Shown one piece after another: positions 7,563-26,282 of a DNA stretch of 64,000 nucleotides. The first letter of the stretch is position 1; each line of letters starts with the position of its first letter. This DNA is from Pseudomonadota bacterium. Lineage in GTDB: Bacteria; Bdellovibrionota; UBA1018; CAIMNF01. The notes under the pieces were generated by a model that searched no databases, was not told where the DNA came from, and worked only from the letters and a program-made list of their open reading frames with translations. The position numbers were made by a program, and so were the translations under genes. The stretch covers positions 1 through 64,000 of the forward strand of contig JAIXWV010000027.1 of NCBI GenBank assembly GCA_027491115.1, in the 5' to 3' direction.

Positions 7563-8101
7563 GCCGGATGTTGATCATTCTCATTCTGTTTTTTTCCGCA
7601 CCCTTTCTGTTGGTCGGGGTTTCCCTTCACTCATGGCCGGTCGCACTGACTGGAATCGTCCTCGCATCCACTTATATTTTTGCACTGATTTCGAGCGGAT
7701 TTTCAGAATTCGTTGCCGATTTGAGGGCGCAACATGTGGATGATTCATTGGATCAACGCCTGAACCGACTTTGGGACCAGGCTGGTCCGGGAAAGCTCAA
7801 GGCCAGATTTTGGATTTATCCGTCCCCCATGATTGAGTTCAAAATTTGGGCCCCAGACGACCAGCGGGTCGAAATATTGTTTAGTCGCGGCCTGATCCAG
7901 ATGGCAACCGACTCCGGATTGAAAGCGGCGTTCCAGAGTATCGGGGAAAAACGGATTTCCGAGGTGAGACTCCAGAATCGCCTCCATGCGTTGATGACGC
8001 GCCTTGAACGGATCAAGGGGCCAAAAGAGGACTATCGCTATTGGTTTCTATCGTTTTGGCTCTATCCTCTTGAGCGGCTCCTGAATATTGCTAAGATCTG
8101 A
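7559..8101 (+). CDS. Membrane-anchored protein with vestigial M48-like segment
   Basis: 180 residues from a GTG start overlapping the previous stop (GTGA). Two hydrophobic segments lie at about residues 4-24 and 28-50. The following region, FWIYPSPMIEFKIWAPDDQ, then VEILFSRGLIQM and LKAAFQSIGEKRI, has the order of strands and helix seen before the HExxH of M48 peptidases, but no HExxH exists. The relationship to M48 is an inference from pattern alone. C-terminal WFLSFWLYPLERLL may be amphipathic. Confidence 0.5.
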   Translation: MSRMLIILILFFSAPFLLVGVSLHSWPVALTGIVLASTYIFALISSGFSEFVADLRAQHVDDSLDQRLNRLWDQAGPGKLKARFWIYPSPMIEFKIWAPDDQRVEILFSRGLIQMATDSGLKAAFQSIGEKRISEVRLQNRLHALMTRLERIKGPKEDYRYWFLSFWLYPLERLLNIAKI

Positions 8102-8104
8102 GAC

Positions 8105-8338
8105 ATGCTTCCCAAACTCGATTTGACCACATTTTTTCTATCCGTGTCCCAAGCGGCCATGCAGTCCATGGATGAACAGGGCAGGGATCTGCAAATGGCT
8201 CGACACAATATCGATTTGCTCGAGCTCCTCCAGGACAAAACCAAAGGGAACCGGACCCCCGAGGAGGATCAGCTCCTCGATCATCTTTTGTTTCAGCTCC
8301 GAATGACTTACGTAAAATCGGATCAAAATCCATCCTGA
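8105..8338 (+). CDS. DUF1844-family small protein
   Basis: 77 residues matching DUF1844: DLTTFFLSVSQAAMQSM, then MARHNIDLLELLQDKTKGNR, PEEDQLLDHLLFQLRMTYV. The family is common in deltaproteobacteria and related phyla as a short all-helical protein of unknown role. It ends the overlapping gene run that began with YceI, starting three bases after the preceding stop. Confidence 0.8.
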   Translation: MLPKLDLTTFFLSVSQAAMQSMDEQGRDLQMARHNIDLLELLQDKTKGNRTPEEDQLLDHLLFQLRMTYVKSDQNPS

Positions 8339-8366
8339 TCCATTCACCCAGAAAGTAGAACCAATC

Positions 8367-9689
8367 ATGGAAAACCAGGTATCTTTGCAAAAGAACGGCC
8401 GTGCACGTGCGGACGTACTTGAGGAACTGAAACAACTTCATCTGCAGGACACCAAGTGGCACGATGGTCGCGCCTTCAGTCTCGTCTATCATGAGAGCGA
8501 CGAACACACAGAGTTCCTGAAACAGGTCTACACCATGTATTTCCACGAGAACGGACTCAACCCTGGGGCGTTCCCTTCGATTCGAAAGTACGAAGCCGAG
8601 GTGGTTGCGATGGCCGCGCGTCTGCTCGGAGGTGGTTACCGGGCCGCAGGGACCATGACCTCGGGTGGATCCGAGAGCATCATGATGGCGGTCAAGGCCC
8701 ACAGGGATTGGGCGTTTACCACTAAAGGCATCAGGAATCCTGAAATGATCGCTCCGTTGACGGTTCATCCTGCCTTCGACAAAGCCGCACATTATTTCGG
8801 AGTGAAGCTCGTCAAGGCAGGGTTGGATTCCGGTCAACGAGTGGACCTCGAACAAGTGAAGTCACTGATCCGTCCCGAGACCATTCTTCTGGTGGGTTCG
8901 GCTCCCCAGTATCCCCACGGTGTGATGGACCCGATCGTAGCATTGGCCGCTCTGGCTCGCGATCATGGAATCGGCATGCACGTCGACGCTTGCGTGGGTG
9001 GCTTCATGTTGCCTTTCTTGAGAAAACTCGGTGTCGATGTTCCACCCTTCGATTTTTCGGTGGATGGGGTCACCTCCATGTCGGCTGATTTACACAAGTA
9101 TGGTTTTGCTGCAAAAGGCGCTTCGGTTGTTCTTTATCGTGATCAGGATCTGAGACGATTCCAGTTCTTTGTCAGCAAGGATTGGCCGGGTGGGCTCTTC
9201 GCATCCCCCTCTGTCACGGGAACCCGTCCTGCGGGATCAATCGCCGCTGCTTGGGCCACTTTGAATGTACTGGGTGAAGACGGTTACCTTCGGATTTATC
9301 GGGATCTTCTCGAAACCATGAAGCGTTATCGTGCGGGAATTGAAAGGGCGGGCTTCCGGATTGTCGGTGAGCCCGTAGGGACCGTGCTCGCTTACGAGTC
9401 CCCGTCGGTCAACATTCATGTGATCGCTGATTTGATGGAAAAGCGCGGGTGGTTCGTGGATCGGCAGATGAATCCGGACTCCATTCATCTTACGATCACA
9501 CCCGCCAATGCACCCGTGGTGGATCGCTACTGTCTCGACTTGGCCGAGAGCACCGAATTCGCCCGCGCTCATCCAGAGCTCGGAGGTGAAGGAATGGCGG
9601 CCATGTACGGCATGGTGGCCAAACTACCCGATCCGACCCAGGTTAATCAATTCCTGTATCATTACATGGATCAGCGTTATCAAACCTGA
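8367..9689 (+). CDS. Sphingosine-1-phosphate-lyase-like PLP-dependent enzyme
   Basis: 440 residues of the group II PLP decarboxylase fold, closest by motif to sphingosine-1-phosphate lyase: MTSGGSESIMMAVKAHRDWA (residues about 98-117), HVDACVGGFMLPF with the PLP-nitrogen Asp207, and SADLHKYGFAAKGASVVLYR with the Schiff-base Lys244. S1P lyases cleave phosphorylated long-chain bases to phosphoethanolamine and an aldehyde. The bacterial enzymes lack the N-terminal membrane helix, as here. It may degrade sphingoid bases made by the cell or taken from prey or host; substrate is inferred from family only. Confidence 0.8.
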   Translation: MENQVSLQKNGRARADVLEELKQLHLQDTKWHDGRAFSLVYHESDEHTEFLKQVYTMYFHENGLNPGAFPSIRKYEAEVVAMAARLLGGGYRAAGTMTSGGSESIMMAVKAHRDWAFTTKGIRNPEMIAPLTVHPAFDKAAHYFGVKLVKAGLDSGQRVDLEQVKSLIRPETILLVGSAPQYPHGVMDPIVALAALARDHGIGMHVDACVGGFMLPFLRKLGVDVPPFDFSVDGVTSMSADLHKYGFAAKGASVVLYRDQDLRRFQFFVSKDWPGGLFASPSVTGTRPAGSIAAAWATLNVLGEDGYLRIYRDLLETMKRYRAGIERAGFRIVGEPVGTVLAYESPSVNIHVIADLMEKRGWFVDRQMNPDSIHLTITPANAPVVDRYCLDLAESTEFARAHPELGGEGMAAMYGMVAKLPDPTQVNQFLYHYMDQRYQT

Positions 9690-9752: not shown

Positions 9753-12341
9753 ATGAGCCAGAAATTCACAACCTCGATGATGAACGCTCTGCAGGCAGCC
9801 CAAAGTGAGGCGCACCAGCGGGAGCATCAGCAGTTGGCGCCTGAGCACGTGCTGTTGGCTTTGGTTGCTGGCGAAAAGGACGACGAAAGCTCTTTGCCTC
9901 ATCTGCTCGAGGCGGGGGGCGTCAATCTCTCCGCCATGAAGGTCGCTCTGGAGACCCGGCTCAAGGGGTTTCCGAGGGTTTTGAGTTCAACCGGGCAGCT
10001 CTATCCGGCTCCCGAGCTACAGAAACTCCTGGCTCTTTCTGAAGGAGAGGCGAAGAAGTGGGGTGATGATTACGTCGCTCCGGAGCATTTCATTTTGGCT
10101 CATTTTCAAGGGAGTGTTTCGACTTTTGAATCGACCCGGATGATCCGGGATACCGGTCTCACCGAGACCGGATTCCGTGATGTCTTGAAGAAGGTTCGCG
10201 GGAACTCACGCATTCAGGACGAGAATCCGGAGAGCAAAATGAACGTACTCAAGAAATACTGCAGGGATCTGACCTCTTTGGCGCGGGACCAAAAGTTGGA
10301 TCCTGTGATCGGACGGGACGAGGAGATCCGTCGGGTGATGCAGGTCCTTTCGCGCAGGACCAAGAACAATCCGGTGCTGATCGGTGAGCCGGGTGTCGGG
10401 AAAACGGCAATCGCAGAAGGACTCGCACTCCGGATATCGACCGGCGACGTCCCGGAGAGTCTGAAGAACAAGCGGATCCTGGTACTCGATCTCGGTGCGT
10501 TGATCGCAGGAGCCAAGTTCAGGGGCGAATTCGAGGAGCGACTGAAGGGCGTATTGAAGGAGGTGACCGGAGCGAAAGGTGAGATCATCTTATTCATCGA
10601 CGAAATCCACACCTTGGTGGGTGCGGGTGCCACCGAAGGGGCGATGGATGCGGCCAACCTGTTGAAACCTGCCCTGTCGAGAGGGGAACTCCATTGCATC
10701 GGGGCGACCACGCTGGACGAATATCGCAAGTACATCGAAAAAGACGCGGCACTCGAACGGCGGTTTCAGCCCATTCAGGTCGAGGAACCGACTGTGGAAG
10801 CCACAGTCTCCATTTTGAGGGGACTTCGCGAGCGGTACGAGGTCCATCACGGCGTCACCCTGCGTGACGCTGCCTTGGTCGCCGCCGCAACGCTGTCCCA
10901 CCGATACATCTCAGATCGGTTTCTCCCTGACAAGGCCATCGATCTCGTGGACGAGGCCGGTTCAAGAGCGCGGATTGAATTGGACTCAAGGCCCGAAAAA
11001 ATCGACCAGATCGAGCGGAGGCAAATCCAGCTCGAGGTCGAAAGGCAAGCCCTAAAAAAGGAGCCCGATCCTGCTTCGAAAACCCGACTTGATACGGTCG
11101 AGAAAGAACTCGCCCTGCTGAAAGATGAATCTCAGGCTTTGAAAGCCATTTGGGAGAGTGAGAAAAAGATCGTCGAGAAAGTGAAGTTGCTCAAAGAGCA
11201 GATCGAACAAACCAAGCTCGCATCTGAAGCCGCCGAACGTCGGGGAGAACTCGAGAAAGCTGCCGAGCTCCGTTACGGCAAACTGACCGCTCTTCAGAAG
11301 GAGTTCGAACTCGCCACTCGTGGAGACGGGGGTCGGAAATCGGGTACTTTATTGCGGCAGGAGGTGACCGAAGAGGACATTGCTGAAATCGTCTCCAGAC
11401 GGACGGGGATCCCAGTCGCCAGGATGGTCGAGAGTGAGGGCGTGAAGCTCGTTCAGATGGAAGAGCGCCTTTCGGGGAGGGTAGTGGGGCAGAAGTCGGC
11501 GTTGTCAGCCGTGGCCAATGCGGTCAGACGTTCCCGCGCCGGATTGCGCGAGCCGCATCGTCCGATCGGCAGCTTCTTGTTTCTGGGACCGACCGGAGTC
11601 GGGAAAACCGAAACAGCCAAGGCCTTGGCCGAGTTTCTCTTTGACAGCGAAACTGCCATGATCCGCGTGGACATGAGTGAATACATGGAAAAGCATTCAG
11701 TCGCGCGCTTGATCGGGGCGCCTCCGGGTTATGTGGGATACGAAGAAGGGGGAACCCTGACCGAGGCGGTACGTCGGAAACCGTATTCGGTGATCCTGCT
11801 TGACGAAATTGAAAAGGCCCATCCTGATGTTTTCAACGTATTCCTCCAGGTTCTTGACGACGGGCGGATCACGGATGGTCAGGGGCGCACAGTGAACTTC
11901 AGTAACACCCTGATCATCATGACCTCGAACCTCGGAAGTCAGATCATTCTCGGAGAAAAGAATCCCTTGATCCGTGATTCGAAGATCCAGGAGTCCATCC
12001 GGGCTCAATTGAAGCCGGAGTTTGTGAATCGGATTGACGAAATGGTGGTCTTCGATCAGCTCGGTCGTGAAGACCTGGCTCACATTCTGGGATTGTACTT
12101 GAAGCGTTTGAATTCCCAGCTCAAAGAAAAGGATCTCCACATCGAGTTGACCGGTGCGGCGGAGACCCGCTTGCTCGAGGAAGGGTATGATCCTGATTTC
12201 GGGGCTCGGCCGATGAAACGTGTTTTTCAGCGGAGGATTCAGGACAAGCTGGCGCTCGAAATATTGCGTGGTGGATTCCAGTCCGGGCAAGTCCTGCGGA
12301 TGGATTTTGATCCGAAGCGCGAAGAGTTCTATCTCGTTTGA
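9753..12341 (+). CDS. clpB: ClpB disaggregase
   Basis: 862 residues, a normal ClpB length. The start at 9753 ([10 protein letters not shown]) follows a CGGAGGGACG ribosome-binding site; the frame opens at 9708. Order: N-terminal repeat domain (1-145), first AAA+ domain with GEPGVGKTA and Walker [15 protein letters not shown], a coiled-coil middle domain of ordinary ClpB size (about residues 400-520), and second AAA+ domain with [11 protein letters not shown] and [16 protein letters not shown]. It rescues aggregated proteins with DnaK. The gene stands alone and overlaps the convergent FAD oxidase gene by 13 bases. Confidence 0.97.
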
Positions 12342-17609: not shown

Positions 17610-17737
17610 TTGTAATCTCCTTGTTATTCAGTTTACAGGGAATGGAGATTCGCAAGGCTTGTGCCAGGGCATCAAAGAAGTTGCACCCTGAGTCAAAGGT
17701 GGTAAGGTCAGGGACGATGTTCCGGGGATGGAAAGGC

Positions 17738-18814
17738 ATGAGGTGGGAGACCGTGGTCGCAAAGTTGATTGCGTGGACCATGGTGGGTGTGGTCGGGGCG
17801 GGTTTGATGAGTCCAGTTCTCGCCATTCCCACAGGATTCAATCAAGCTTGGTTCAAGAATCATTATGGCACTCAGTACCTGGATGAGGCATTTGATCCCA
17901 TTGAGGTACAGCGGATATTCAAGCTGGCAAAATCGGGTGGGGCCGATCAAGTCCGCCTTTGGTTGTTTGAAACCACGAATTATCCCATGTTGGAATGGAA
18001 CGCTCAGGGTCACATCCAGGGGATTCGCCAGGATTTTGTACGGAATGTGCTCCGGATGCTGACCATTGCCCGTGAAAACGGTGTCCGGATCTACCTGACG
18101 CTGCTCGATCCCCAGGTATATCGACCGGATCAAACCAATCAGGATCATTCTCGGTTTAGGTGGATCGTGAATTCGGCCGGGGGGCGCGAATTTCTGGAAG
18201 TCGCACTCGGACCCTTGCTCCTTGCGATCCACGAGGCAGGGCTTTCTGATCGAATTTCCAGAATCGATCTTGCCAATGAAATGGACGCTGCAGTGAACCG
18301 CTTCGCATTCGAGGGGGGGTGGAACGGAGCTTCTCGGTTTTTGTGTCGATGGCGGGAATTTATCCGCTCCAGGCCCGGTTTTGGATCCACCCCTGTGAGT
18401 GCCTCACTTCGCTTGCATCCATTGCTCTGGTTGCCAGGTTCCCTTTTTCATCGGAACGGCTCCATGGCTTGTGCTGATTTTCTTGATTTTCACTCTTATG
18501 GGGATCACGGACAGATCCACCGGTGTGAGGAAATCAAGAAGTACTCCCGATCCGGATCGAAGCCGGTCATTTTGGGGGAGTTCGGGCAGGCGTATTTCAC
18601 ACACCGTTACAGTGACGATCTTCAGGTGCGAAACACACGTGCCTACCTTGCCTCTGCAAACTCATGCGGATTCAAAGAGGCTCTGGCATGGCGGTTGTCG
18701 GATATCCGTGAAGGGGAGAATCCCGAAGCCCGTTACTCTTTTGAAGCCTTCGGGACGACCCGTCCTGCGTTTGACTTGATCCGTGCTGAAAATGTCCGTA
18801 CCTTACGGCCCTGA
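17738..18814 (+). CDS. Secreted clan-A glycoside hydrolase (GH5-like)
   Basis: 358 residues from ATG 17738 (alternatives ATG 17717 and TTG 17621). Residues 1-29 form a signal peptide ending SPVLA. The mature domain is a TIM barrel by motif: the acid/base Glu181 in RIDLANEMD and the nucleophile Glu281 in VILGEFGQ are spaced as in GH5 and related clan-A families, with DFLDFHSYGDHG between them. Substrate (a beta-glucan or mannan is typical) cannot be told. Its promoter region is shared with the divergent beta-helix gene. Confidence 0.75.
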   Translation: MRWETVVAKLIAWTMVGVVGAGLMSPVLAIPTGFNQAWFKNHYGTQYLDEAFDPIEVQRIFKLAKSGGADQVRLWLFETTNYPMLEWNAQGHIQGIRQDFVRNVLRMLTIARENGVRIYLTLLDPQVYRPDQTNQDHSRFRWIVNSAGGREFLEVALGPLLLAIHEAGLSDRISRIDLANEMDAAVNRFAFEGGWNGASRFLCRWREFIRSRPGFGSTPVSASLRLHPLLWLPGSLFHRNGSMACADFLDFHSYGDHGQIHRCEEIKKYSRSGSKPVILGEFGQAYFTHRYSDDLQVRNTRAYLASANSCGFKEALAWRLSDIREGENPEARYSFEAFGTTRPAFDLIRAENVRTLRP

Positions 18815-18816
18815 CT

Positions 18817-21800
18817 TCAGTTTCCTCCGACGGCTCGGAGTACGTCCAGGAATACATTGCACTCCGTGATGGATCTGCCTCTGGCTTGATGTTTTTCTTT
18901 CAGTTTTTTCAAAAACGAAAGGGTGTCGGCACCCGGATCCACTTGTTTTAGGATCGACTCGGCAAATTCAGGCTTCTCACCGCCGAACAGCTCCAAGATG
19001 GCCTTGTTCTGCGGATTGAATTCCAGCACATCTCCCCAGCCTTGACGGAGTTCGAGGATCTCGTATCTCATGTCGAGATAGATCTGGGCACGTACCGGGT
19101 CCGGCAATTTTTTGAATGCGGCACGAACCCTGCCTTGGGCCACTCCCGGTTTTTCATCGATGAGCAGTTCTTTGAATCGTGACAGAAGGCGTTCTCGAGC
19201 CGAAGCGTCATGGTTGAAGTCCGCTTTGGACAGGTCGGGATGCACCATGATTCGCTCCAGGAGCTGGGTTTCGGCCTCCCGAGACCCATTTGACGAGAGG
19301 AGTGTTTCAAGGTCTCGGATCCCTGGATTCCCGAGCGCGTCGAACACCTGCTTCACCACGGTGGGATCGGATGCTCCCATCATGGATCCAGCATGCAGGA
19401 TTCTGGACTCACGGGAGAGTGGCAATTGGGTGAACACCTCTCCGTAGGTTTTTTGGAGTTCTCTCGGTAGCTTGGGATCGGAAAGATCCGCACCCACATA
19501 TCGCATGAGATTTTGTGACTGTTCTTCAGGTAGAGAGGCTATCCATTGACTCTCCTGGGCTTTCAGCTCTTGGATGAATGCAATGTCTCTCGCACGCATT
19601 TGCTTCAGGTCCTGCGCCAGCAACACCCTTTCATAAGGGGGAATTTTGGTGAGATCCTCCAGCTTCATGGTTCTGAGTTTCTGCTGGTACCGCTTCAGGT
19701 AGTCTTTCGCGCTCTCACTGAGACGGGGGTAGGGTGATTCGGCCAGGTACTGCATGGCCCGTTTCCCGCTCGGCCCCAATTCATCCTTGATTGACTCCAC
19801 TGCCAGATAGGAGACCACCGGGTCGGTGCCCATGCTTCCTGCCGCAAGGCTTACAGCTGAATGGTAAGCAGGACTTCCTACCTTGGGCGACTTGAGCTGG
19901 TGTACGGCCGAGTACCGGTACAACTGCTTTTTCATGGACTCGTCATAGATCCCTTCGGCAAGACGCGAGAAGTCTTGCGCTTCCTTGTACTTCAGATCCA
20001 GGGCCTTTGCTGCGCCCTTCACTTGGTCTTTCGAAAGCCCCCAAGAATGAGTCTCGAAGAGGCTCTTGGCCATCTCACCCACCGCTTTCTTCTGCCTGGA
20101 ATTGAGGTTCAGATCGGCCAGATCTCCCAGCAACTCCGCTTTTCTCGATGCCTCGAGATGATCAAAACGGCTCTGAATGAACTGGAGGGTCTCCTTGGGA
20201 CGGGCCTCGTGCTGGTATTTCAGAAGGTCTCTCCGTACCAGTGGATCCGGATTGCGTTCAATCGCACCCAGGGTGAGTGAGCCCTTTCCGGCCCGATCTG
20301 CACGCTCAGCCAACCATCGCGCAAAATCCCGATCTTTCGTGTTCTCAAGATAGAGTTGAATGGTCTGGTCCAACAAGGGAAGGGGTTGTGGGCGACTCAA
20401 AATGCGATCGAGTTTTCCAGCCAGGGCCTGACGCTCAGTTAGGGGTATTTTCGGATCACGTGAGCGCTCGTATGCGGCTTTCAGGTAGAGTGGTAAGTCT
20501 GGCGCCTGAATCTTTTCAATGTCACGGAAGGCTTTCGGGAACGACTCATCGAGAAGAGTGGCAGCGAACTTCCTCTCGGCCTCACTCGAGCTCAGGAATC
20601 CCGAAAGCATGTTCTTGATTCCCTCTTTGTCATTTCGAGAGATCGCAGCTTTCAAGAAAGCATTCCTAATTTTCTCGTCCGGATGTTTCATGAGGTCGCT
20701 CAGTGCCGTATGGGCGGCAGTGGTCCCGCCGGTGAGATCTTTTTGAGCCAGATATGCAGATTTGAGTTCAGAGGATCGATTGTACCTCTGTACCGCTGTA
20801 GACCAGTATCGGGTCAAGGCATCGGAGGCGTAAGGAGGGAGCTTTTTCGGTTCAATGCTGCGAGACAGATCAGAAAGTCCTTTCAGACTTTTGGTCTCGT
20901 CAAGGATTGAAGCGAGGTCGGCGTTTTTGAAGAGCGAGGCCTTTCTGGTATCGTCGAGCTTCATCAGCTCTTCCAAAATCGGTCCGCTGATCTCGGAGTC
21001 CGGGTAGAAAGCGAGTTGACGGATGAGCGCTGATGCAATCTGATCTTCACCGTGCTTGAGCAAAGCATTGGCCATGAACCGGGTTCGATCACTGTTTTGC
21101 CTGAATTTCTTCGAGTTGAAGAAGTGAGAGAGGCTATCCTCGTCTTGGGGGTCGAAACGATTGAGACTCCAGGATGACATTCTCGAAACTGTTTCAGCGG
21201 TTAGGCGTTCCAAATCTTCCGGTTTCAAACTTTTGGAGTGCATCCGGAGGAGGTCCAGAGCCTCTAGGGGTTCAAGCGCTGCAAGCTGGCGCTCATTGAA
21301 GGCCTCCAGAATCTCAGGACGACTCGGGAGGTTCTGACTCGTCAGGTTCACCCGCTCGACCGAGTTCATTTCTTCCCTGAGATTCTCGGCACGTGCAGCC
21401 GCTCTCCGTCTCAAATCGAATAATTTCTGGGATTCTTCATCCACCGTGCCGGTCCAACGGTAGTCTTCGGCACGCAGGGATCGGGTGGAGGGCCTTTCAG
21501 CGACAGCGGGGCTCCAGTTTTCTGTCTTCGGGAAAAGGGCCATCTTCTCGTTGTAGGGGACATAGGTTTTGGAGGTTCTCCAGTCCTCGGTGATCCTGAG
21601 ACCGTCATAGAGGTAACCTCGGTATTCCTCAGGGTTGAGTCCCAATTGGGATGTGAGTTTGGAAAGTCCCTCCTCGGCTTTATTTGGATTCTTTGCCCAG
21701 CCTTCATAATTGACTTCTTGGATCGTGCCACTCAGGGGAGCGGTTTCATCGAGGGCGTAATCAATCAGGGAACGGACTAACTTGATCTGCGACTCGGCCT

Positions 21801-24351
21801 CGGACGGGGTTCTCGGAGCGCCAAAGAGTCGGAACTCGGCTTTCCTAATCTTGGGATCCACATTGAATGTTTTTCTCCAAGCGTCGTTTTTCAGGTCGAA
21901 ATCGGCAGTGAGGTACTCCTCCGGGATGACGTCTTGGAAGTAAGCCGATACATCGAGTTGAGTGTACTTGGTTTTTCTTCCAAGTCGGGTGTTGAAAAAT
22001 TTCTCGTCATAGAGGAGTTTTTTCAGTTCGGACTCGGTTCCATTGAAGTCCTTGAGTTTCTTCAAGAGGTGGGTCGAAACGGTATGGGGTTCCGCTGAAG
22101 CCAGTCGTCCCGGATGTTGGTAAAGCATACCGATCGTCGCGCGGTTCTCGAGGAACACCGACAGGAATCGGGCCATCGCTTTCGGGCGGCCCTCGAATAC
22201 CTTCAGGTCCACGTTGATGTGGCCTCCCCCCATGGCAAATGAGGGTTTCATCCCTTTGGCCTCGAAAGCATCGAAAACTGCTCCGACCCTTGTGGATTCC
22301 GGGATGAATTTGGGGGTCACCACTTCGATGTGTCCGCCACGGATCGACTTATCGATGAGTTTCCCTGTTTGATCATAATCGCGGCCGACCCCGTCCCATT
22401 CCACCCGCCATTTCTGGTTGTTCTGGTCCCGAAACTCGTAGGCGATCACCATGGAGTGTCCGTGACCGGGATCGGAAAGAGAGGTGATCTGTGTTTTTTT
22501 GCCTCCGTTCATCCTACTGGCAAGATCGTTGGCGAGATCTTCGATCACCTTTTTCTTTTCATCGACACTGAGATCGGACTGGGTGGTGATCCAGGCTTTT
22601 TTTCCGGTTTCCGGAAGCGGGCTCTCGCTCATCACGACCTTGGTCCGTGTCGGGAATCGAGCTGTGTATTCGATTCCGAGATCCACACGATTGACATCGA
22701 CCCCTTTTGGATTTTTCGAAGCGAATCCTCCGAATTCGGGATTTTGTGAGTAAGACGGGGGCTTCGGCTTCAGGTAGGTTTCGATGTCTCTTTTCAGGTC
22801 ACTTGAAGAGACCCAGGTTTTGAGGTGTGCCCGGATCCCATCGAGTGTCGGGTCTTTCATCGCAGCCAGGTTTTTCACAAATGACTGGGTCAGTTTTTTG
22901 AGTTCATCTTTCTTTGCAGCCGAAACATAGGGACTTTTTTCCCAGTTCCAGAAGGGGAGCCAGAATTCCTGTTGGAGTTTGCGGGTTTGCTCGTACCCAC
23001 CTTTCATTTTCGACATCTCCACCGACTGGATGTTGGCAATGGCCTGTTTGACTTCGAGATCGCTGAGTCCGAATCGTTTTGCGAGGTCCCCCTTGTCAAA
23101 TTTGTGGAGTTCATAATCTGCGTTTCCGAGATCGTCGAACTCGGCCGTTGCGTAGCGGGAGATCAGGCAGGATTGAAGGAAACGACGGTTCTTGTCAAGC
23201 TTGGTTCCGGCCCGCTGTTCAAGATTGAAGGAGGGGACTCCATCCACTTTGAAACGATTTCGCTCCACACGGAGCACTCCACGTTGGGTTTCATGGCTTT
23301 TTAGGTTTTCGGCTTCCTGGAGATCTTTGAAGTCGGCGATTTCAATTCCGGTGCCGCCCTCTATTCCTGATAATACCGTGTGGGCTTGCATGTTCTGGTA
23401 GATGTCCGCAAGTTTGTTTCGGACTTTCTGATCGGCCTCGGTGTTGGAGGCCAGATTCTTGTATTCCGGAAACACGATCCACTGGTGGCCTGGCGCCTCA
23501 AACAAAACACCCTGGTGAGACAAAGCCTTTCTGTACCAGGATATCATTTCCTCGAACTCTCCATAGGATCGCTGAGGTTTGAAGTTCATTTCCCATCCCA
23601 CGGATGTCCCATGGGCATCCGAGAGGAAGCGCTCTGCATCACCGAAGTGAGGCTTCCAAGCTTTGTATTCTGCTTTTTTATTGTAGTTTCCTTTTCCCCA
23701 GTTGTCCGCGCCCGTCATTCCCGTGAATTGTCCGTTGAACATTTTTGACCTTGTGGTTTGATTCAAGAAGCTGAACGGGCGGTCTTCGGTGAGTTTCAAC
23801 CACGAATCGAAGTCTTTTTTGACATCGGCATAGGGAATCGTTTTGTAGTCTTTTTTTTGAAAGGACTTCGGATCCACTACCTTCTTGTTGCCTCCTGCAT
23901 CGACTACAGGCGTCTTGTTCCGGTAGCGGCCGTCGGACCAGCCCTCCATAAAGTCACGCATGAACTGTTCCTGTCGAGGGGCGTCCATGGTTCCAATGAG
24001 TTTCTTAAATTCGTCTGAATCCGGGCCCATCACCCGCGTGATTCTTGAGGATGATCCTTCTTTTTCACCCCCGAACATGAAGACTTGCTCGGTGCCGACC
24101 ACTGTGACGGGCTTCTTCTCGAAAGTCATCGAGGTTTCCATGAGGTCCGACCAGACTCCCCAAGCACTGCGCTGGGCATCCTTGGGCATTGTGAATTCCG
24201 GAGTCGGGATCGTTGATTTCGGCTTGGCTTGGACCGTTCTGCTCTCTCGTGGTGAGACCACCAGTCGAGGATCCTGGGCATTAACCAGAGTCGTTCCAAG
24301 AGTGAGCAGTGAGCCGAGGAGAGCTGTCGAAAGGATGGATTTGAAGTTCAT
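18817..24351 (-). CDS. 1844-residue secreted protein with amidoligase-like core and helical-repeat tail
   Basis: Signal peptide at 1-25 (LVNAQ). Residues about 555-880 carry the pattern of the COOH-NH2 ligase (amidoligase_2) superfamily related to glutamate-cysteine ligase: VDLGIEYTARFPTR (556-569), WRVEWDGVGRDY (648-659), GGHIEVVTPKF (672-682), GGGHINVDLKVF (708-719) and KAEFRLFGAP (837-846). Residues about 240-370 (SVGWEMNFKPQ, GHQWIVFPE, LRVERNRFK) look like a second, weaker copy. From about 990 to the end it is almost all helix, with HEAT/Armadillo-like 35-40-residue units (LEELMKLDDTRKASLF and similar). Amidoligases need ATP, so an exported one is odd. It ends three bases from the convergent hydrolase stop. 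No close relative is known to me. Confidence 0.6.
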   Translation of the reverse strand: MNFKSILSTALLGSLLTLGTTLVNAQDPRLVVSPRESRTVQAKPKSTIPTPEFTMPKDAQRSAWGVWSDLMETSMTFEKKPVTVVGTEQVFMFGGEKEGSSSRITRVMGPDSDEFKKLIGTMDAPRQEQFMRDFMEGWSDGRYRNKTPVVDAGGNKKVVDPKSFQKKDYKTIPYADVKKDFDSWLKLTEDRPFSFLNQTTRSKMFNGQFTGMTGADNWGKGNYNKKAEYKAWKPHFGDAERFLSDAHGTSVGWEMNFKPQRSYGEFEEMISWYRKALSHQGVLFEAPGHQWIVFPEYKNLASNTEADQKVRNKLADIYQNMQAHTVLSGIEGGTGIEIADFKDLQEAENLKSHETQRGVLRVERNRFKVDGVPSFNLEQRAGTKLDKNRRFLQSCLISRYATAEFDDLGNADYELHKFDKGDLAKRFGLSDLEVKQAIANIQSVEMSKMKGGYEQTRKLQQEFWLPFWNWEKSPYVSAAKKDELKKLTQSFVKNLAAMKDPTLDGIRAHLKTWVSSSDLKRDIETYLKPKPPSYSQNPEFGGFASKNPKGVDVNRVDLGIEYTARFPTRTKVVMSESPLPETGKKAWITTQSDLSVDEKKKVIEDLANDLASRMNGGKKTQITSLSDPGHGHSMVIAYEFRDQNNQKWRVEWDGVGRDYDQTGKLIDKSIRGGHIEVVTPKFIPESTRVGAVFDAFEAKGMKPSFAMGGGHINVDLKVFEGRPKAMARFLSVFLENRATIGMLYQHPGRLASAEPHTVSTHLLKKLKDFNGTESELKKLLYDEKFFNTRLGRKTKYTQLDVSAYFQDVIPEEYLTADFDLKNDAWRKTFNVDPKIRKAEFRLFGAPRTPSEAESQIKLVRSLIDYALDETAPLSGTIQEVNYEGWAKNPNKAEEGLSKLTSQLGLNPEEYRGYLYDGLRITEDWRTSKTYVPYNEKMALFPKTENWSPAVAERPSTRSLRAEDYRWTGTVDEESQKLFDLRRRAAARAENLREEMNSVERVNLTSQNLPSRPEILEAFNERQLAALEPLEALDLLRMHSKSLKPEDLERLTAETVSRMSSWSLNRFDPQDEDSLSHFFNSKKFRQNSDRTRFMANALLKHGEDQIASALIRQLAFYPDSEISGPILEELMKLDDTRKASLFKNADLASILDETKSLKGLSDLSRSIEPKKLPPYASDALTRYWSTAVQRYNRSSELKSAYLAQKDLTGGTTAAHTALSDLMKHPDEKIRNAFLKAAISRNDKEGIKNMLSGFLSSSEAERKFAATLLDESFPKAFRDIEKIQAPDLPLYLKAAYERSRDPKIPLTERQALAGKLDRILSRPQPLPLLDQTIQLYLENTKDRDFARWLAERADRAGKGSLTLGAIERNPDPLVRRDLLKYQHEARPKETLQFIQSRFDHLEASRKAELLGDLADLNLNSRQKKAVGEMAKSLFETHSWGLSKDQVKGAAKALDLKYKEAQDFSRLAEGIYDESMKKQLYRYSAVHQLKSPKVGSPAYHSAVSLAAGSMGTDPVVSYLAVESIKDELGPSGKRAMQYLAESPYPRLSESAKDYLKRYQQKLRTMKLEDLTKIPPYERVLLAQDLKQMRARDIAFIQELKAQESQWIASLPEEQSQNLMRYVGADLSDPKLPRELQKTYGEVFTQLPLSRESRILHAGSMMGASDPTVVKQVFDALGNPGIRDLETLLSSNGSREAETQLLERIMVHPDLSKADFNHDASARERLLSRFKELLIDEKPGVAQGRVRAAFKKLPDPVRAQIYLDMRYEILELRQGWGDVLEFNPQNKAILELFGGEKPEFAESILKQVDPGADTLSFLKKLKEKHQARGRSITECNVFLDVLRAVGGN

Positions 24352-24417: not shown

Positions 24418-25167
24418 TTATCGAAAAGCCTGACGGTACGCGGTTTCGATGTCGAATTCCTCGAAACGCTCCTTTACGGGGGAGCCACTGTCGACCGCCT
24501 CCAGGTCTTTGGGTTGCCACATGTACATAGGCGCCATCATGAAGTAGCAGTATTCCGTGTGAGGGACCGATGCGTACTCAGAGTAGCGCTGCACCACCTT
24601 GCAGGGTGTTTTCGGTTTGATGAAATGGTCTGACCAAGTCTTCTGGGTGACCGGACGGTCGAAGAATCCCGGATCCATGACGCGTGATTCAGTGCCCCGA
24701 CCCGTGTCGACTCGAGTCAATGGTGCCACATGGAACCACCAGCGGTAGTGGTATTCTCGGATGTACCGGGAAGAAAAAAACATGAAAATCTTTTCCGAGC
24801 GGATATTCAGATCACGATTGGCTTCATATGCCCATACGTGGGCCCGATTGTAGCACTGGGCACGATAGCGGGTTCTTCGATTCATGGATTTGAACCAGCG
24901 GGTCATTCGGGACTCATCCAAAAGGTCAGCTTCATACTCCAGCTGAGGGTAAGGGGGTTCAAGAGTTGTCCACTCAGAGGGGGTCTGTAGGATCAATCGC
25001 CGCAGAAATTCTTCTTGCCCGGGAGGAGCCTCCTTAACCGATCCATCGGACAGATAGACCAAAGGGGTCAACCCGGGTGCAGTGTCCAATGCCACGATGG
25101 AGGTTGCAACCGGAGATGCTTGGGCTGGTGAGGAACATAAAAAAAGTGTCAGGATCCAAATCAACAT
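24418..25167 (-). CDS. Secreted protein-glutaminase-like deamidase
   Basis: 249 residues from ATG 25167 (a further ATG at 25185 is possible). Signal peptide at 1-17 (PAQA). The mature region has the order Cys105 (AQCYNRAHVWAYE), His146 (WWFHVAPLTRV) and Asp165 (SRVMDPGFFDRP), followed by TWSDHF. This Cys-His-Asp layout is that of protein-glutaminases of the Chryseobacterium type, which deamidate Gln side chains in proteins and share a papain/transglutaminase-like fold. Active enzymes are often made with a pro-region, for which residues 20-80 could serve. It lies just upstream of the amidoligase-like giant gene on the same strand. Confidence 0.7.
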   Translation of the reverse strand: MLIWILTLFLCSSPAQASPVATSIVALDTAPGLTPLVYLSDGSVKEAPPGQEEFLRRLILQTPSEWTTLEPPYPQLEYEADLLDESRMTRWFKSMNRRTRYRAQCYNRAHVWAYEANRDLNIRSEKIFMFFSSRYIREYHYRWWFHVAPLTRVDTGRGTESRVMDPGFFDRPVTQKTWSDHFIKPKTPCKVVQRYSEYASVPHTEYCYFMMAPMYMWQPKDLEAVDSGSPVKERFEEFDIETAYRQAFR

Positions 25168-25208
25168 GTCGGATCCTGACTGCAAAAGGTGTGCTCAATC
25201 CCCCGAGT

Positions 25209-26282
25209 TCAGGGCCCGGAGCTCGGTGCACGCTTCAGTTTGGGATTGTGAATCATGAACTTCATCCCGACGCTGTTCCCCATGAACCCGAGATTGTACT
25301 CCTGGGTACCGTCGAGGAAACCGTGCTTCATGTGGTATAGGCCCAATTTATTCTCATAAAACAGACCGAAACGTTCGTTCGGTGTGTTGAACTCAATGCG
25401 ATTGGTCACATTTCCTCCGAACCCTTGAATTTGCATCCGGTCGGTGTTTCCGTCGAACTCCCACCATTCTCCTTGTTTCACCGCTTGAGTCACGCACGCA
25501 CCCGCCATCACACCGGTTGCAATCGAAGGAGTGTATACTAGGGACCCCGCTTTTCCATCAGCCAGGGTGAAGCGTTTGCCGGCGCCGACTGTGAATTCCA
25601 TCTGTTTGTGCGTGCATCGGTTCTGAACAATCTTACTTTCACCCGGGGTGTGCATGTATCCGTAAAAAGGTGTGTTCACTGCTTGCATCCGGTCGATTGC
25701 CACACCGTCGATGGTGCCCGTCATGTGCTTAATCTGACCTTCATTTTGGAGGTACTTTGGATGAAATGCAGACAAAAAGAACTCTGTCCCGTCTTTTTCG
25801 ATGCTTACAGTGAAGGTGTTGGTCGGTTCATCGAGCATCTGAAACGGGTTATTTCCATCCTTTCTCCAGGTTTCCGGCAGAAAGAATTCTCTGGAGCTCC
25901 TTTCGGCCCATTCATAGTCCTGGATGGAGACCTGGTATCGGGAGGAGTCGATTTTCAGATCCGAGTTGAAGTAGGTGGTGAATGAGTGGCTGGTGTAGAG
26001 TCTGACTTTCCATTTGTCACCCGAGGCTTTCACCGGTGATGGAGAAGGAATCGCCTCGGCACAGGCGGGGACGGCGTTCATCTTCCCAGTTGCAGGGATG
26101 ATATTCTCAGCACTGATTTTGGCACGTGTTTCGAGCCAAACCTCACAAAACCCATCGTCAATCACGATCCAAGGCTGTGAAGGAACTGACTCACGACAGA
26201 TCGAATCGAGATCCGGAGAAGCTGGTGTCTGTGGATCTGATTGTGCCGAGACTGAGAACAATAGAGCAAGAATAGACAACAT
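25209..26282 (-). CDS. Exported protein, unknown
   Basis: 357 residues with a short signal peptide (to about residue 14). The mature protein is strand-rich with many aromatic residues and alternating polar/apolar segments (VRLYTSHSFTTYFNSDL, YQVSIQDYEW, FTVSIEKDGTEFFLSAFHPK, EYNLGFMGNSVGMKFMIHNP), which fits an outer-membrane barrel or large beta sandwich. Six or so Cys residues suggest disulfides. No family was recognised. It is co-directional with the protein-glutaminase-like gene, 41 bases apart, so they may be co-transcribed. Confidence 0.65.
   Translation of the reverse strand: MLSILALLFSVSAQSDPQTPASPDLDSICRESVPSQPWIVIDDGFCEVWLETRAKISAENIIPATGKMNAVPACAEAIPSPSPVKASGDKWKVRLYTSHSFTTYFNSDLKIDSSRYQVSIQDYEWAERSSREFFLPETWRKDGNNPFQMLDEPTNTFTVSIEKDGTEFFLSAFHPKYLQNEGQIKHMTGTIDGVAIDRMQAVNTPFYGYMHTPGESKIVQNRCTHKQMEFTVGAGKRFTLADGKAGSLVYTPSIATGVMAGACVTQAVKQGEWWEFDGNTDRMQIQGFGGNVTNRIEFNTPNERFGLFYENKLGLYHMKHGFLDGTQEYNLGFMGNSVGMKFMIHNPKLKRAPSSGP

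Follow-up and report, generated by a model that had tools for sequence, protein, structure and literature searches.

We report, within a 64,000-nucleotide stretch of DNA from a member of the Bdellovibrionota (hereafter the window), a gene for a protein of 1844 residues that we tentatively read, with confidence somewhat short of even, as an exported and probably prey-directed protein-modifying amide ligase of this mostly predatory phylum, a reading in which we infer the catalysis, ATP source, substrate and delivery. An earlier note had taken the same reading frame for a secreted protein with an amidoligase-like core, and the four motifs it listed (GIEYTARF, HIEVVTP, GGGHINVDL, EFRLFGAP) are all present in the translation. 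The gene is also complete in congeners G001 and G007, at 81–84% identity to the window protein, and comparison of the three genes gave dN/dS values, where dS was unsaturated, of 0.02–0.03 for the C copy, about 0.02 for the connector and about 0.06 for the tail, with the N copy saturated in dS and showing a pN/pS of about 0.1. The family is under strong purifying selection and, because the frame is intact in congeners and dN/dS lies far below one, it encodes a constrained protein and is no chance reading frame. Searches of NCBIfam, PHROGs and PADLOC yielded no useful family for the window protein.

Table 1. Coordinates of the ligase gene, its predicted domains, its upstream neighbours and related fusion genes (unprefixed positions refer to the window).
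Feature	Position	Strand	Basis and remarks
Amide-ligase-like gene	18817..24351	-	ORF call; 1844 aa, ATG start
Domain order of the product	18817..24351	-	Signal peptide + N copy + helical connector + C copy (amidoligase-like) + HEAT-like tail
Predicted signal peptide, residues 1-25 (MNFKSILSTALLGSLLTLGTTLVNA)	24277..24351	-	Sequence; equivalents in nearly all relatives
N copy, residues ~61-430	23062..24171	-	Divergent, probably amidoligase/GS-like domain; conservation, AlphaFold, Foldseek
Helical connector, residues ~431-545	22717..23061	-	Peak identity to the L014 protein, 96.5%
C copy, residues ~546-940	21532..22716	-	Amidoligase (COOH-NH2 ligase)-like; Pfam, hhalign, Foldseek
HEAT-like helical-repeat tail, residues ~985-1844	18820..21399	-	HEAT_2 matches
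Protein-glutaminase-like gene (PF18626)	24418..25185	-	Upstream, 66-bp gap to the ligase gene; Pfam 4e-14
357-aa gene, probable exported protein	25209..26282	-	Next upstream; Pfam family not found
Amidoligase-ATP-grasp fusion	L099:1378-3630	+	Signal-peptide-like start + Amidoligase_2 + R2K-like domain
Amidoligase-ATP-grasp fusion	L100:304-2598	+	Signal-peptide-like start + Amidoligase_2 + R2K-like domain
Amidoligase-ATP-grasp fusion	L105:1-2481	-	Signal-peptide-like start + Amidoligase_2 + R2K-like domain

Profile and fold searches support the C copy, the central third singled out in the earlier note, as a divergent member of the glutamine-synthetase (GS)-like COOH-NH2 ligase, or amidoligase, superfamily. 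Against Pfam Amidoligase_2 (PF12224) the window protein scored 15.7 bits (E 0.015) and its core alone 16.6 bits, both short of the curated gathering score of 22 bits, which congener G001 reached only with its neighbouring pieces in frame; family-wide, matches at E <= 1 were obtained for 24 of 33 members, the best at E 9.8e-9. Profile-profile alignment (hhalign) of the C copy to 11 amidoligases or amidoligase-like proteins of the same class, the majority of which exceed the Pfam cut-off, gave Prob 98.5 and E 2.8e-15 across 313 columns with the motifs in register. The AlphaFold model of residues 55–1000, built with 33 sequences, reached a pLDDT of 85.8 and a pTM of 0.84, and a Foldseek search with this core model put viral amidoligases at the head of its list (E 6e-6, prob 1.00). 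Of the solved structures, glutamine synthetases scored best (prob 0.99–1.00, best E 2.4e-3), followed lower down by a GCS2-like protein, Dop (7oxv) and PafA (4bjr), with the whole list spanning prob 0.85–1.00 and E 2e-3 to 4e-2; Foldseek TM-scores were low, in part because a two-domain query was aligned to single domains. The core sequence searched against the PDB gave no match. Profile search, profile-profile alignment and fold search thus agree on an amidoligase-like core, and neither outcome that the earlier note had named as telling against it, a missing amidoligase match or a different fold, occurred. The top viral fold matches, which are phage and giant-virus amidoligases, share only 9–14% sequence identity with the query, which gives no sign that the gene came recently from a virus.

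Conservation within the C copy argues for an active enzyme, as predicted from its motif pattern. Seven residues are invariant in 33 sequences (E561, H630, H632, E651, D653, R657 and E676; residue number = alignment number + 54) and five more are nearly so (H711, N713, D715, E839, R841), and E561, E651, D653, E676, H711, E839 and R841 align with motifs of bona fide amidoligases. The first motif reads ExT/S (GIEYT or GIEYS) rather than the ExE usual in Amidoligase_2, and ExT also occurs in other exported-looking single-domain relatives (L079–L081).

The weaker second copy that the earlier note placed before the core is likely a second, very divergent amidoligase-like domain. Its residues E96-K97-E98-G99, G288-H289 and E378-x-R380-x-G382 are invariant and follow the order of amidoligase motifs (E-x-E as EKE, a (W,Y)E strand, GHQ and E-x-R-x-G), and residues 61–430 were modelled confidently (pLDDT 89.1, pTM 0.86). 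Confident fold and motif order thus speak for the claim, but the searches fell short of significance: four of the top five Foldseek matches were named amidoligases at E >= 0.03, and two hhalign attempts to link the N copy to the C copy or to amidoligases returned E 0.04–0.13 and no link. We regard homology between the two copies as suggestive.

The C-terminal tail of about 855 residues, noted previously as a helical repeat, is probably HEAT-like, judging by its relatives. Measured against a Pfam cut-off of 27.7 bits for HEAT_2, the match was weak in the window protein itself (18.3 bits, E 0.003–0.011), stronger in two congeners (E 9e-6 to 2.1e-5; 26.3 bits in L014) and over the cut-off in L029 (31.2 bits, E 2.8e-7); a scan of the tail for repeats found no family other than HEAT_2. 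A tree built from the C copy places every long-tailed member in one clade, and most other members are proteins of about 890–1040 residues consisting of a signal peptide and the tandem core without a tail.

Export is predicted from the N-terminus, MNFKSILSTALLGSLLTLGTTLVNA^QDP, which by inspection is a textbook Sec signal peptide. Inspection of the sequences, together with a crude scan, showed similar N-termini in nearly all relatives, and AxA-type cleavage sites occur in much of the tandem family, supporting the earlier call of a secreted protein and a prediction of Sec export through a conserved signal peptide. The scan used a home-made and crude detector, not SignalP, which at a loose setting was positive for 31 of 32 family members versus 132 of 314 control ORFs, and at a strict setting for 16 of 32 versus 63 of 314; inspection is the stronger evidence. 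Nearly all other amidoligases in the 58 nearest genomes that could be traced to a full N-terminus also begin in a signal-peptide-like way, including L095, L097, L099, L100, L101, L105 and the single-domain L079–L082 (positive with the loose detector) and L096 and L104 (by eye only). Among these, L099, L100 and L105 are fusions (Table 1) of an Amidoligase_2 domain and a C-terminal R2K-like ATP-grasp domain recognised through sub-threshold Pfam matches (best 2.4e-5), each apparently an exported pair of ATP-dependent ligases in one polypeptide. Taking these exported-looking amidoligases and ATP-grasp fusions together, ATP-dependent ligases thus appear to have been exported repeatedly in the class.

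Several further architectures were observed among these relatives. L095 and L096 resemble the R2K-like fusions by eye, and with them the group spans about 600–830 residues, with Amidoligase_2 matches at E values down to 1e-17. L081:1610-3418 (-) is an exported-looking fusion of an N-terminal transglutaminase-like domain (DUF553, E 9e-5, over the cut-off) and a divergent amidoligase-like domain, and L101:1387-3453 (+), also exported-looking, seems to contain a pair of amidoligase domains (FGVELEY ... LGFEAEF) and may be a tandem that arose independently. L015:8633-10001 (+) bears an extra N-terminal domain of about 450 residues before the tandem core, with no Pfam family above cut-off and a stretch (HSQNFLVELD...RDLGDSN) that is reminiscent of siderophore-synthetase or kinase-like motifs.

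Evaluating the gene neighbourhood, we found the protein-glutaminase-like gene next to the ligase gene in all three ligase-bearing congeners. Its product is similar to 8z3i, a protein glutaminase domain of solved structure (E 0.0075), and its N-terminus, hydrophobic, ending in AQA and devoid of basic residues, is probably a signal peptide. The 357-aa gene beyond it is possibly in one transcription unit with the ligase gene, and 8 of 12 congeners have homologues of its product, whether or not they carry the ligase. Glutaminases of PF18626 are expanded in the genus, with one to six copies (frames of about 190–370 aa) in each of 12 genomes, congeners G001–G011 among them. A fixed glutaminase-ligase pair is weakened by the presence of glutaminase genes in 12 of 12 congeners versus the ligase in 3, and by other clades having other neighbours; functional coupling of the two is only a lead, since congeners carry one to six glutaminases with or without the ligase. 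In a sister deep clade an exported-looking subtilisin-like protease lies directly downstream in six loci (L034, L038, L039, L040, L041, L044), that of L038 matching Peptidase_S8 at E 1e-41. Convergent with the ligase gene, the frame at 17621-18814 (+) of the window encodes a probably exported protein with a glycoside-hydrolase look (GVRIYLTLLDPQ, DLANEMDAA, LGEFGQAY) and no convincing match in Pfam.

The tandem core with its signal peptide is an old family. Genomes from 84,980 species were scanned with a pair of conserved peptides, a two-pattern design with limited power to detect remote relatives outside the phylum. This recovered 32 loci that are essentially all Bdellovibrionota, with titles naming Bdellovibrionales, Bacteriovoracaceae, Halobacteriovorax, Silvanigrellales or Oligoflexia or remaining vague (Deltaproteobacteria, 'bacterium'). 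One locus (L042) is titled Lysobacteraceae, probably wrongly, and seems to correspond to genome G016, which belongs to the window's own order. A survey of the phylum gave matches in 71 of 369 genomes, 61 of them strong (E <= 1e-12) and 10 weak, the latter through single-domain relatives. The gene is present in every listed genome of two genera (5 of 5 in g52, 6 of 6 in g53), and the fully sequenced Bdellovibrio sp. qaytius (CP025734) has a tailless homologue. In the window's own genus 3 of 12 genomes carry the ligase gene; as the other 9 lack it, the genus does not depend on it for its way of life. At L030, near-identical pieces of one gene (7655-8473 and 11638-12162) lie on either side of the amidoligase gene, as if a duplication had brought the latter in or had accompanied its insertion.

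To connect these observations to function, we start from the known chemistry of GS-fold ligases, in which an acyl phosphate is formed in an Mg-ATP-dependent step and then attacked by an amine. As an exported ligase the protein would leave the cytoplasm via Sec, and its C copy, if no other GS/amidoligase-fold domain, would probably be catalytic, binding Mg-ATP and converting a side-chain or terminal carboxylate into an acyl phosphate; joining of this intermediate to an amine would tag or cross-link a protein, a peptide or a peptidoglycan peptide. The N copy may add an active site of its own or serve as the half that binds substrate, and the HEAT tail, where present, may be a protein-binding scaffold that chooses the target. 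The predator's own periplasm is expected to lack ATP, which counts against an exported ligase; Bdellovibrio takes up intact prey ATP, and the nucleotide could be supplied by dying prey whose contents are freed where the predator feeds. The partner enzymes would suggest work on prey proteins: here a glutaminase, and in the sister clade a subtilisin-like protease that looks exported. Predators of the Bdellovibrionota secrete enzymes into prey (PMC2797640), and digestion of the prey inner membrane releases the contents into the prey periplasm (PMC4289276). Because predators secrete enzymes into prey and break its inner membrane, a ligase acting in or on prey would be an economical reading, and prey would be its natural target since the family is Bdellovibrionota-wide.

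Where the enzyme works and whether it spends ATP are the points on which two other readings part from this one. The protein may instead stay in the predator's periplasm or at its surface and modify peptidoglycan, pili or outer-membrane proteins of the predator itself, for instance amid nucleotide-rich prey contents. We consider this unlikely, although a signal peptide by itself takes a protein no further than the periplasm, family searches of the window proteins recognised no passenger, autotransporter or dedicated secretion signal, and relatives in the phylum without a known predatory life may exist; weighing against it are a periplasm without ATP, the confinement of the family to a predator-rich phylum and the degradative nature of the partner enzymes. 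The ATP problem would disappear if the GS fold served a Dop-like hydrolase or transferase, using the nucleotide as a cofactor or not at all, that hydrolyses or exchanges amide bonds outside the cell through deamidation, isopeptide cleavage or transglutamination-like exchange. Dop and PafA among the fold matches, neighbours that are amide hydrolases (protein glutaminase and protease) and the transglutaminase-like domain fused to the related L081 are all in keeping with such an activity, but the nearest profile relatives are amidoligases and the exported amidoligase-ATP-grasp fusions of the same class argue for ATP-dependent ligation outside cells, so that we hold it to be improbable.

That the protein is no enzyme at all, with the fold reused as a binding module or adhesin on a large secreted HEAT-repeat scaffold, seems to us quite improbable. 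This would fit the strong divergence of the N copy, the long non-catalytic tail and the first motif of the C copy, where T/S takes the place of the second acid of ExE; however, the pseudoenzyme option raised in the earlier note is made less likely because two deep clades keep the acidic, histidine and arginine motif residues unchanged, or almost so, in both copies, and the low dN/dS of the C copy (where dS is unsaturated) and the lack of a tail in most members beyond the long-tail clade stand against a scaffold as well. An enzyme kept in the cytoplasm, or anchored in the membrane by an uncleaved N-terminal helix and facing inwards, would likewise have ATP at hand, and the signal-peptide call draws on inspection and a crude scan, but the AxA-type cleavage sites and the exported look of the partner-gene products leave it very little probability. 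The exported, probably prey-directed ligase remains the reading we prefer.

Comparison with known systems places the fold and chemistry among known kinds. Amidoligase_2 (PF12224), reportedly described by Iyer et al. 2009, a study cited in PMC4431377, with other COOH-NH2 ligases of GS-like fold, shares with the window protein the fold, the order of motifs (E..., D, E-x-TP, GGH-x-N/H, E-F/x-R), the hhalign profile match and an association with peptidases and other ligases, from which the window protein departs in its signal peptide, tandem domains, C-copy ExT, HEAT tail and sub-cut-off score. Glutamine synthetase and the GCS2-type gamma-glutamylcysteine ligases (YbdK-like, 1tt4) are likewise found by fold search (best prob 0.96–1.00) but are cytoplasmic and of other architecture, and no similarity of the window protein to solved structures could be detected at the sequence level. 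PafA and Dop, the Pup ligase and depupylase, have the GS fold and act on protein side chains; in contrast to the window protein they are cytoplasmic and possess neither a tandem nor a signal peptide, and no Pup-like partner was seen by the window gene. To our knowledge, GS-fold amide ligases consume ATP and are cytoplasmic.

Two further systems share parts of the proposed biology. R2K/CDC123-type ATP-grasp ligases have been suggested to act in biological conflicts as toxins or effectors (PMC4431377), which offers the notion that peptide ligases are sent into other cells and a link to the exported-looking L099, L100 and L105, but these ligases have another fold and are associated with T6SS or T4SS rather than Sec, and the window protein lacks an ATP-grasp domain. 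The Rlo system of Pseudomonas aeruginosa (PMC12239564) also links an exported hydrolase to an amide-ligase-like gene, whereas its ligase-like RloC (ATP-grasp) is cytoplasmic and the window's ligase-like protein is itself predicted to be exported. We found no description of the exported tandem architecture, its HEAT-tailed version or its phylum-wide conservation in the literature searched.

More broadly, we consider it possible, if doubtful, that the Bdellovibrionota send out of the cell an entire class of ATP-dependent amide ligases, comprising tandem amidoligases and amidoligase-ATP-grasp fusions, which would ligate prey macromolecules with prey ATP as a previously undescribed predatory tagging or cross-linking system. 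If true, these predators would perform synthetic as well as degradative chemistry in their prey, for instance by tagging, capping or cross-linking proteins or wall peptides.
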